Part shown: piece by piece, positions 5,004 to 61,340 of the stretch
How the letters are laid out: every line of letters begins with the position of its first letter
How positions within the stretch are numbered: position 1 is the first letter of the stretch
Origin: Candidatus Zipacnadum vermilionense
GTDB lineage: Bacteria; Armatimonadota; Zipacnadia; Zipacnadales; Zipacnadaceae
Direction of reading: 5' to 3'
DNA length: 64,000 nt
Assembly: GCA_029821755.1 (NCBI GenBank)
Contig: JALGSV010000007.1
Location: 124,001-188,000, forward strand
Position numbers and translations under genes: made by a program
Notes under the pieces: generated by a model
Seen by the model: the letters and a program-made list of their open reading frames with translations, nothing else
What the model was told of the DNA's origin: nothing
The model's database searches: none

Positions 5004-5013
5004 GGGAGGAGAA

Positions 5014-5376
5014 CCTCACCCCCTGGCCCCCTCTCCCGCGCCTGCGGCTTGGGAGAGGGGGAAAGATGCCGCCGTGGCGAGCGGGGCCAGCCTGCTTCGT
5101 TCGAGCTGCACAGGACAGGACTTGAGGGGGCGGAGGCGGGGAGAGGGACGCAAAGGTTAGCGAACGGGCGGCTGGCGGGTGTGATCGCAGACGGCTGCGC
5201 GCGGAAGCCGCCCCCACGAGAGCGCGGGCTGGAAAGCCCGCGCCACGCGGAGCGACGGGCGAGGACGCCCGTCGTACCCGGAGGAGACATCGCCCCGAGG
5301 AGCGGTGCCGCCGGAAGCGAGGGGCGAGAACGCCCGTTGTACCTAGGGAGGCGGCGGGGGACATAGCCCCCGCCCT
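5014..5376 (+). repeat. Intergenic repeat cluster (class A plus four GTRG-type hairpins)
   Basis: This spacer of about 390 nt has no gene. It holds a class A copy (5014-5062, starting 10 nt after the capsid stop), a GCGGGC-stem REP ending CCACGCGGA (5219-5253), a GACGGGCG/CGCCCGTC hairpin ending GTAC (5258-5282), a related AGGGGCG/CGCCC hairpin (5315-5340) and a GGCGGGGG/CCCCCGCC hairpin ending CTAT (5350-5381). Confidence 0.8.
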
Positions 5377-8802: not shown

Positions 8803-8835
8803 GGAACGGCGGGACGGCGGCGGGGGAGAGGGGAA

Positions 8836-9035
8836 CCTCACCCCCCGGCCCCCTCTCCCGCGCCTGCGGCTTGGGAGAGGGGGAGGAGAGGGGATCGGCG
8901 GGGACACCGGTCTGGAGAACGGTGCCACTAGGGTCGGTGTGTTGGCCGTGAGCTAGGGCGGGCGGGAGGCCCGCGCCACGCGGAGGGGAGGCAGGACCTC
9001 GCCACCCCGCACCGGCGAGACGTCGGTGCCACCGG
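8836..9035 (+). repeat. Intergenic repeat cluster
   Basis: It contains a class A copy (8836-8885), an ACACCGGTC/AACGGTGCCAC hairpin (8908-8932), a degenerate GCGGGAGGCCCGC REP ending CCACGCGGA (about 8956-8983) and a CACCGGCGAGACGTCGGTG hairpin ending CCAC (9009-9033). The last one runs directly into the GGAAGGAG ribosome site of the next gene. Confidence 0.75.
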
Positions 9036-9745: not shown

Positions 9746-9825
9746 TCCGCGTGGGGCGGGCTTCCAGCCCGCCCTCGGAGGCGCATGTTCACGGGAGGGC
9801 GGGCTGGAAGCCCGCCCCACGCGGA
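9746..9825 (+). repeat. Inverted pair of REPs (BIME-like)
   Basis: TCCGCGTGGGGCGGGCTTCC with its palindromic partner is followed 20 nt later by its inverted copy ending CCCCACGCGGA. The 80-bp unit has the same layout as the pairs flanking the RAYT gene. Its right end overlaps the ribosome site of the next gene. Confidence 0.9.
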
Positions 9826-12964: not shown

Positions 12965-13104
12965 CGGCAGGCAGGACGACAGGCACGGAGGCAGGCGCAG
13001 GGACAGGCACAACGTCAGGGAAGGGAGCGCGGGCTAGAAGGCCCGCGCCACGCGGAGAGAGCTTGCGCCATACGGAACACCGGCGAGAAGCTGGTGCCAC
13101 CGGG
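12964..13104 (+). repeat. Degenerate GGCAGGCAC repeat plus two REP-like hairpins
   Basis: It contains tandem GACAGGCAC-like words (12964-13019), a CGCGGGCTAGAAGGCCCGCG REP ending CCACGCGGA (13023-13056) and a CACCGGCGAGAAGCTGGTG hairpin ending CCAC (13078-13101). The last hairpin is followed at once by GGGAGGGG and the start at 13113. Confidence 0.75.
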
Positions 13105-19227: not shown

Positions 19228-19391
19228 CGGGACACCGCTCGGGAGAGCGGTGCCACTGGGGGACGGCTGGTTCTGGTTCATTGAGGTGAACAAGGCCCGC
19301 GCTACCGCGCGGGCCTTGTTCACTTTTAGATGGCGGGCTGGAAGCCCGCCCCACGTAGAGGAGCCACAGGCTTGGAAGCCTGGGCTACCCA
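19228..19391 (+). repeat. REP-like hairpins around a terminator
   Basis: It contains a CACCGCTCGGGAGAGCGGTG hairpin ending CCAC (19230-19256), a GGCGGGCTGGAAGCCCGCC REP ending CCACGTAGA (19332-19362) and an AGGCTTGGAAGCCT hairpin ending CTACCCAG (19368-19391). Confidence 0.75.
19286..19327 (+). terminator. Strong intrinsic terminator inside the tail region
   Basis: A perfect 16-bp stem starts GTGAACAAGGCC and closes GGCCTTGTTCAC around a CTACCG loop, and is followed by TTTT. It lies between the 73-residue ORF and the fibre-like gene, so the lysis/fibre genes may need their own promoter or antitermination. Confidence 0.8.
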
Positions 19392-38666: not shown

Positions 38667-38697
38667 GAGCGCGGGCTGGAAAGTTTGCGCCACGCGA
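38667..38697 (+). repeat. Degenerate GCGGGC-stem REP
   Basis: CGCGGGCTGGAAAGTTTGCG has a decayed right arm and ends CCACGCG, just before the ribosome site of the nitroreductase gene. Confidence 0.65.
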
Positions 38698-43815: not shown

Positions 43816-43856
43816 GCGCGCGGGGCGGGCCTGCCGGCTCGCCCACGCGGACAGTG

Positions 43857-58593: not shown

Positions 58594-58672
58594 TCCGCGT
58601 GGGGCGGGCTTTCTAGCCCGCCCTCAGCGGCTGCTACGGGGAGCGCGGGCTAGAAAGCCCGCGCCACGCGGA
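58594..58672 (+). repeat. Inverted REP pair upstream of the RAYT gene
   Basis: TCCGCGTGGGGCGGGC with its AGCCCGCCC partner is followed 19 nt later by CGCGGGCTAGAAAGCCCGCG and CCACGCGGA. Both ends are complementary (TCCGCGTGG/CCACGCGGA), so the whole 79 bp is one imperfect palindrome. It ends at the ribosome site of the RAYT gene. Confidence 0.92.
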
Positions 58673-58685
58673 GGGAAGGGTGCAC

Positions 58686-59183
58686 ATGTCCGAGCATCCC
58701 GGTTTTACCCCCTTGGGGGAGTTTGAGCGACGCAAGCGCCGTTTGCCCCACTGGGAGTCGCCTGACGAGGCCTACTTCATTACCTTCCGCCTCAGGGATC
58801 GCTCCGTAGTCGATCTGACCAGTCCCCCGATTGCGGCCATCATCATCGAGGCCCTGCGGTTCTTCCACGATAGACGGTACACTCTCTGGGACCACACGAT
58901 CATGCCGGATCACGTGCATCTGATCATCAAGCCGCTGGTGAAACGCGGGCTAACAATGCGTCTGGGGCACATTCTGCAGGGCCTCAAAGGCTGGACAGCG
59001 AGACAGATCAACTCGCACCTGGGGCGGCGGGGGCCATTGTGGCAGGACGAAAGGCACGACCACATCGTCCGCAACCAGAAGGACTACGTCGAAAAGGCTG
59101 CATACATCCTGGACAATCCGCGACGTGCGGGCCTGGTCAAAGACTCGACGGAGTGGCCGTGGTGGTCGGTGGGGGTGGAGTGA
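58686..59183 (+). CDS. REP-associated tyrosine transposase (RAYT, Y1/HUH type)
   Basis: The product has 165 residues. The HUH motif is MPDHVHLI (H76, H78) and the Y1 tyrosine region is KAAYILDNP (Y140; Y134 is the alternative). RLRDRSVV, GGPLWQDERHDHIVRN-type sequence (here GPLWQDERHDHI) and WPWWS at the end are usual RAYT features. It would cut and rejoin single-stranded REP DNA at the hairpin base. It is flanked on both sides by inverted REP pairs, the typical REP-RAYT-REP layout. ATG at 58686 follows GGAGGGAAGGG; GTG at 58680 overlaps that site. Confidence 0.92.
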   Translation: MSEHPGFTPLGEFERRKRRLPHWESPDEAYFITFRLRDRSVVDLTSPPIAAIIIEALRFFHDRRYTLWDHTIMPDHVHLIIKPLVKRGLTMRLGHILQGLKGWTARQINSHLGRRGPLWQDERHDHIVRNQKDYVEKAAYILDNPRRAGLVKDSTEWPWWSVGVE

Positions 59184-59210
59184 CGCGTCGTGTCGCCTGA
59201 TGGACCTCAG

Positions 59211-59285
59211 CGTGGGGCGGGCCTTCTAGCCCGCCCTCAGCAGCTGCTGCGGGGAGCGCGGGCTAGAAGGCCCGCGCCACGCGGA
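59211..59285 (+). repeat. Inverted REP pair downstream of the RAYT gene
   Basis: The layout matches the upstream pair: CGTGGGGCGGGCCTTCTAGC, a 20-nt CTCAGCAGCTGCTGCGGGGA middle, then the inverted copy ending CCACGCGGA. The hairpin arms differ from the upstream pair by a single compensated-looking C/G versus T/A change (CCTTCTAG vs CTTTCTAG). Confidence 0.92.
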
Positions 59286-61262: not shown

Positions 61263-61340
61263 TCCGCGTGGCGCGGGCTTTCTAGCCCGCGTTCCCTGGC
61301 CGGCCGCCGAGGGCGGGCTAGAAAGCCCGCCCCACGCGGA
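61263..61340 (+). repeat. Inverted REP pair, reversed composition
   Basis: TCCGCGTGGCGCGGGCTTTC leads to a 20-nt spacer and the GGCGGGCTAGAAAGCCCGCC hairpin ending CCACGCGGA. The two hairpin types appear in the opposite order from the pairs at the RAYT gene. Confidence 0.9.

Follow-up and report, generated by a model that had tools for sequence, protein, structure and literature searches.

A single RAYT gene bracketed by its own REPINs as the very probable source of a dispersed, GTGG-tagged REP family

Background

Systems comparable to the locus described here are the REPINs and RAYTs of Pseudomonas fluorescens (Bertels and Rainey 2011, PMC3116915; a study of REP diversity from 2013, PMC3686654), the TnpA-REP/BIME system of Escherichia coli (PDB 4er8; PMC8266576), and the superfamily of GTAG-tagged REPs (PMC3733652). 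According to the model developed for TnpA-REP, the enzyme binds single-stranded REP, cleaves at an adjacent dinucleotide and rejoins the strands, and the REPIN is moved in trans (PMC8266576, PMC3116915). Tyr115 and Asn119 of the E. coli protein are named as catalytic (PMC8266576) and as essential in vivo (PMC6006769).

The organization around the RAYT (REP-associated tyrosine transposase) gene studied here, RAYT1, agrees with that of P. fluorescens in a lone RAYT gene with its own REPs at its flanks, in a GTGG/GTAG guide, and in the dispersal of inverted REP doublets; at the level of the genome, several RAYT-REP pairs and lineage-specific REP classes are common to both. Despite this similarity there are differences: RAYT1 belongs to a distant lineage, many of its REPINs combine one C-type with one G-type arm, and the copies on either side of the gene are direct repeats of near-identical sequence. 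With E. coli, RAYT1 shares an HUH motif and a tyrosine that align, a GTRG guide next to a hairpin, and inverted pairs, whereas E. coli REPs carry GTAG and a bulged stem and the RAYT1 family GTGG and a perfect stem. Tagged stem-loops, dimers, an intergenic location, and a RAYT flanked by REPs are likewise found in the GTAG-tagged superfamily, which was surveyed in Proteobacteria, Cyanobacteria, Chloroflexi, and the PVC group (PMC3733652); the lineage of RAYT1 may lie outside these groups. A GTGG guide is already known in other bacteria (PMC3686654), as are the general arrangement, REPINs, and RAYT-specific REP classes, and the novelty is modest in this respect. The RAYT-REPIN relation, well studied elsewhere, is extended to a lineage that has apparently received little study and in which it is common for a RAYT to have REPs of its own.

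Results

RAYT1 and its flanking REPINs

Within the window (the whole 64-kb stretch of DNA analysed), RAYT1 is situated at 58686..59183 on the plus strand and constitutes an intact open reading frame of 165 aa from its ATG. The protein reaches 93.2 bits (cut-off 80) with the NCBIfam equivalog NF047646 (REP_Tyr_transpos), no IS200 model was matched in the NCBIfam profile search, and the score for Pfam Y1_Tnp (22.4 bits) is below the cut-off of 23. Sequence similarity to E. coli TnpA-REP (PDB 4er8) is low (phmmer, E=7e-6). In a scan of genome contigs, the homologues retrieved were all cyanobacterial, at 35-39%. The catalytic set consists of the HUH residues His76 and His78 and of Tyr140, plus Asn144; in an alignment of 34 RAYTs (RAYT1 and 33 homologues) they are conserved in 34, 32, 34, and 33 members, respectively, and Y140 and N144 are aligned with Tyr115 and Asn119 of E. 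coli. On these grounds, the HUH/Y1 transposase of 165 residues read from the letters alone in the original prediction is confirmed.

The upstream REPIN (58594..58672) starts around 20 nt past the stop codon of a GH57 gene and ends 13 nt before the ATG of RAYT1; it is composed of a G-type REP on the plus strand (58594-58624) and a C-type REP on the minus strand (58642-58672), with GTGG as guide. The downstream REPIN (59208..59285), again an imperfect palindrome of two inverted REPs, is a direct repeat of the upstream one. Both are identical at 67 of 71 positions (94.4%), and two of the four differences (4/71) represent one matched change, T-A to C-G, across the two arms. As single strands they fold with -43.1 kcal/mol (upstream; z -8.9 against shuffles) and -40.8 kcal/mol (downstream; z -7.3), and each half of the upstream REPIN also folds alone (z about -4). 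An imperfect palindrome of around 80 bp made of two hairpins on either side of the RAYT had been predicted and is found; concerning the ends of these pairs, the prediction has to be amended, as the downstream pair has CAGCGTGG and not TCCGCGTGG at its outer left end.

The end of the upstream REPIN contributes the GGA of a possible ribosome-binding site (GGAGG) around 10 nt 5' of the RAYT1 start codon, and the long REPIN hairpin might therefore damp translation of RAYT1. The middle sequence of the flanking REPINs is private, i.e., absent from the other REPIN copies listed, and for this reason the dispersed copies listed do not descend directly from these two.

The REP family in the genome

All family counts and comparisons refer to draft assemblies. 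The genome carrying the window (G000; 4.39 Mb in 115 contigs) contains 195 exact copies of the REP head CGCGTGGNGCGGGC, compared to one for the reversed control pattern, and 58 complete inverted pairs (REPINs), compared to none in the control. The inverted doublet is thus a dispersed unit, and the hairpin is repeated far beyond the RAYT locus, in agreement with the expectation of a genome-wide family. The unit of around 79 nt (TCCGCGTGG...CCACGCGGA) is built from REPs of the layout TCCGC-GTGG-stem-loop-stem-CTC, in which the GTGG guide is located 5' of the hairpin and outside the stem. Among 58 distinct REPs the ends of the family are sharp: conservation sets in at T(-5) of TCCGC-GTGG and stops at CTC(+3) behind the stem.

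The first stem pair, compared over 88 arms, is G-C in 50, C-G in 29, and T-A in one, and is unpaired in eight. Since it changes compensatorily, the individual REP hairpin is maintained. The two arms of a REPIN are combined as C/G in 27 cases, as G/G in 13, and as C/C in two. Clean copies are mainly intergenic over the 440 kb inspected in full; on contig C71, 26 of 34 REPs lie in called spacers, compared to 14% of random positions (gene calls being crude). Some dispersed REPINs share the whole unit including its middle, with up to 97% identity. Concordance of the loops between arms (26/44, vs 14.9 by shuffling) was considered as a sign of general covariation and was rejected as proof; beyond the majority loop it is made up of a TTCCA founder subfamily and the downstream RAYT1-flanking copy, i.e., about two independent events.

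RAYT1 itself is present once in G000 and is not amplified. In IS200/IS605 elements tnpA is amplified together with its ends; here, one RAYT1 gene is found vs 58 REPINs, and the gene is bracketed by REPs of a family dispersed in the same genome, as in RAYTs.

Further copies in the window

Two dispersed REPINs are situated in the window exactly as originally described, one of the TTCCA-loop subfamily at 9746..9825 (93% identity to a copy at C38:82029) and one with C-type and G-type arms at 61263..61340. The five single copies named beforehand proved to be of unequal quality. Those reported at 5219 and 13023 are clean C-type REPs on the minus strand without mismatches to the consensus head and stem (5223..5252 and 13028..13057), and those reported at 19332, 38667, and 43827 are degenerate, with two (19332..19360, minus strand), three (38670..38696, minus strand), and two mismatches (43817..43843, plus strand). 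A further clean single on the minus strand (8957..8985) had been overlooked; it is located in a repeat-rich spacer of around 250 bp, and a counterpart is absent from the congener G002. At a tolerance of up to two mismatches, the head has 15 matches in the window alone vs 6.2 expected. Rfam yielded no match in the window.

Other RAYTs and their REPs

Five RAYT-like genes exist in G000, namely RAYT1 and four others, each at most 39% identical to it. RAYT2 is flanked by GTAG-CACAGGCTTCCAAGCCTGTG, the relaxed form of which (GTAG-CRCAGGC...) has 24 copies in the genome; RAYT3 has at its flank an array of GTAG-CGCAGGCGTCTCGCCTGC, with nine exact copies in the genome; RAYT4 and RAYT5 are flanked by other long hairpins or inverted repeats. 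As two other RAYTs carry clearly different REPs, the REP family of the window goes with RAYT1. Across the phylum, hairpins tagged with GTAG or GTGG and differing in their stems occur within 350 bp of about 27 of the 34 RAYTs surveyed. The cognate relation is most strongly indicated by the finding that each RAYT has a tag and hairpin of its own, and this part of the original prediction is supported by the different REPs at the other RAYTs.

RAYT2 and RAYT4, which are unlike genes, lie around 1.6 kb apart (G000:C22:144-2480). The hairpins flanking RAYT4 have stems of 16 bp (GGCAGRTGGGGCAGGC...GCCTGCCCCAYCTGCC). The hairpin flanking RAYT5, CTCGCGCACAAACAACGTGCGCGAG, is located next to CCACCC, and a near copy exists at G000:C17:119032-119071; RAYT5 may therefore have a terminal-repeat family of its own.

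Comparison with relatives

The REP head is at background level (0-3 copies) in other members of the family, with the exception of the congener G001 (nine copies); the second congener, G002, has none. G001 further contains 54 copies of a stem-switched version, GCAGGC/GCCTGC, in which both sides of the stem are changed and which is absent from G000 and G002. Its REPINs have unlike arms, the C-type with loop TTCCA and the G-type mostly with ATCCTT or a similar loop. GTAG and GTGG are equally frequent as guides (42 REPs each), and among these REPs no clear dinucleotide rule relates guide and flank. In two genomes of the same order, G024 and G028, 20 and 29 head copies were counted and no RAYT was hit. 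The hairpin there (CGCGTGG-GGCGGGC-GTCTC-GCCCGCC) is different from that of the window's family, because the copies read mostly have GTCTC as their loop and are unpaired. Judged by these assemblies, the REP family is lineage-restricted: confinement of the hairpin to the RAYT locus, or equal abundance in relatives lacking a RAYT, would have spoken against the original prediction, and neither was found.

Concerning the locus itself, the GH57 neighbour is present in ten relatives, in which the gene downstream of RAYT1 is not conserved, and RAYT1 was seen at the orthologous spot in no relative examined. In G002, neither REP nor RAYT follows the conserved GH57 gene; the next gene is prepilin-type, as read from its start and not from a family search. 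In G001 (79% complete), no RAYT1 orthologue was found (best match 39%), and the contig ends around 113 bases downstream of the GH57 stop in a REP head, TCCGCGTAGGGTA, such that the expected RAYT1 locus may lie beyond the assembly break. With the downstream gene not conserved in the relatives and the G001 contig ending in a REP, no clean empty site was obtained for RAYT1 itself. Several G001 contigs end at a distance of no more than a few dozen bases from a REP, and draft assemblies of this kind therefore probably under-represent both REPs and RAYT loci.

Empty spacers, which had been proposed as a check, were found for dispersed copies in part: neither G001 nor G002 has the REPIN of C71:257008-257083 between the same two genes, and G002 lacks the one at C71:260819 in its orthologous spacer, the orthologous spacers having diverged such that the exact insertion junctions are unreadable. 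Loss in the congeners instead of gain is formally still conceivable at these sites.

Discussion

The locus is very probably a REPtron, i.e., a single chromosomal RAYT1 bracketed by its own REPIN and the source of the dispersed family. An intact RAYT, a dispersed family, REPIN architecture, and different REPs at the other RAYTs all agree with the originally suggested origin of the repeats. RAYT1 would act as a single-strand DNA nuclease recognising a REP by the GTGG tetranucleotide beside a hairpin of 7-9 bp. By analogy with TnpA-REP biochemistry, it would cleave next to the REP at a dinucleotide and then rejoin the strands, and the two-REP unit would be dispersed in trans into intergenic spacers while the RAYT1 gene itself stays in place. 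Concerning the dinucleotide, CT is found immediately 3' of the stem in most copies, the unit begins at T, and C is found at -6 in 31 of 58 REPs; CC is situated at -4/-3 of the REP. In the published model a GTGG guide would select CC, and a change of the guide from GTAG to GTGG is reported to permit cleavage at CC in vitro (PMC8266576). Cleavage at CT or CC beside these REPs is a prediction. As a natural GTGG family with sharp ends, these REPs would allow guide-dependent CC cleavage to be tested on native substrates.

Whether dispersal continues is a separate matter. The near-identity of the flanking REPINs, which had been taken as a sign of present activity, exists, but it is a weak argument, dispersed copies reaching 97%. 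Together with the private middle of the flanking copies, these identities fit movement of REPINs after the lineage had separated from its congeners, but give no firm indication for the present. In a relic variant of the REPtron, RAYT1 would have dispersed the repeats in the past, these would now be immobile and decaying, and the RAYT would be kept for a host function. Many single and degenerate copies and closest dispersed copies that are 97% and not 100% identical fit this variant, whereas the intact reading frame and catalytic residues, and at least one REPIN that neither congener has in the orthologous spacer, do not favour it; we regard it as possible, though doubtful.

Roles as terminators, mRNA stabilisers, or supercoiling sites have been proposed for REPs (PMC3733652), and hairpins selected by the host for such functions could have spread otherwise, the RAYT merely having landed beside two of them. 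The intergenic location of the copies, often shortly past the end of a gene, and their strong fold would suit this explanation. It is nevertheless improbable: in a single genome, three RAYTs lie beside three different REPs, about 27 of the 34 homologues are accompanied by a GTAG/GTGG-tagged hairpin of their own, the conserved guide outside the stem is needless for a terminator, no T run follows the hairpin, and the family is missing in the congener G002.

That REPIN-RAYT-REPIN moves as a whole, as a composite transposon with REPINs as ends and dispersed REPINs as solo remnants, is highly improbable. The near-identical direct repeats and a RAYT found at this spot in no relative examined would agree with it; against it, RAYT1 is single vs 58 REPINs, and the dispersed copies listed lack the private middle of the flanking ones.

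Within the REPtron reading, a dual constraint might act on the repeats, each arm being a RAYT substrate and the whole REPIN one long hairpin, with the guide having drifted between GTAG and GTGG within the family between sister species. For the arms, covariation of the first stem pair and the retention of C- and G-type arms in both G000 and G001 point in this direction, and for the whole unit the paired loop changes, such as those by which the two RAYT1-flanking copies differ; overall, we consider this rather unlikely. If true, the guide drift would amount to a natural experiment on whether the cleavage dinucleotide is determined by the guide. In any case, paired sister families that differ by switches of stem and guide are available in this lineage.

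Besides the REPs, a second spacer repeat, CCTCACCCCCCGGCCCCCTCTCCCGCGCCTGCGGCTTGGGAGAGGGGG, is situated in the window at 5008-5062 and 8830-8886, in which the GTRG tag is absent. Similar stretches, CCTCACCCCC, are also found in the congener G002.
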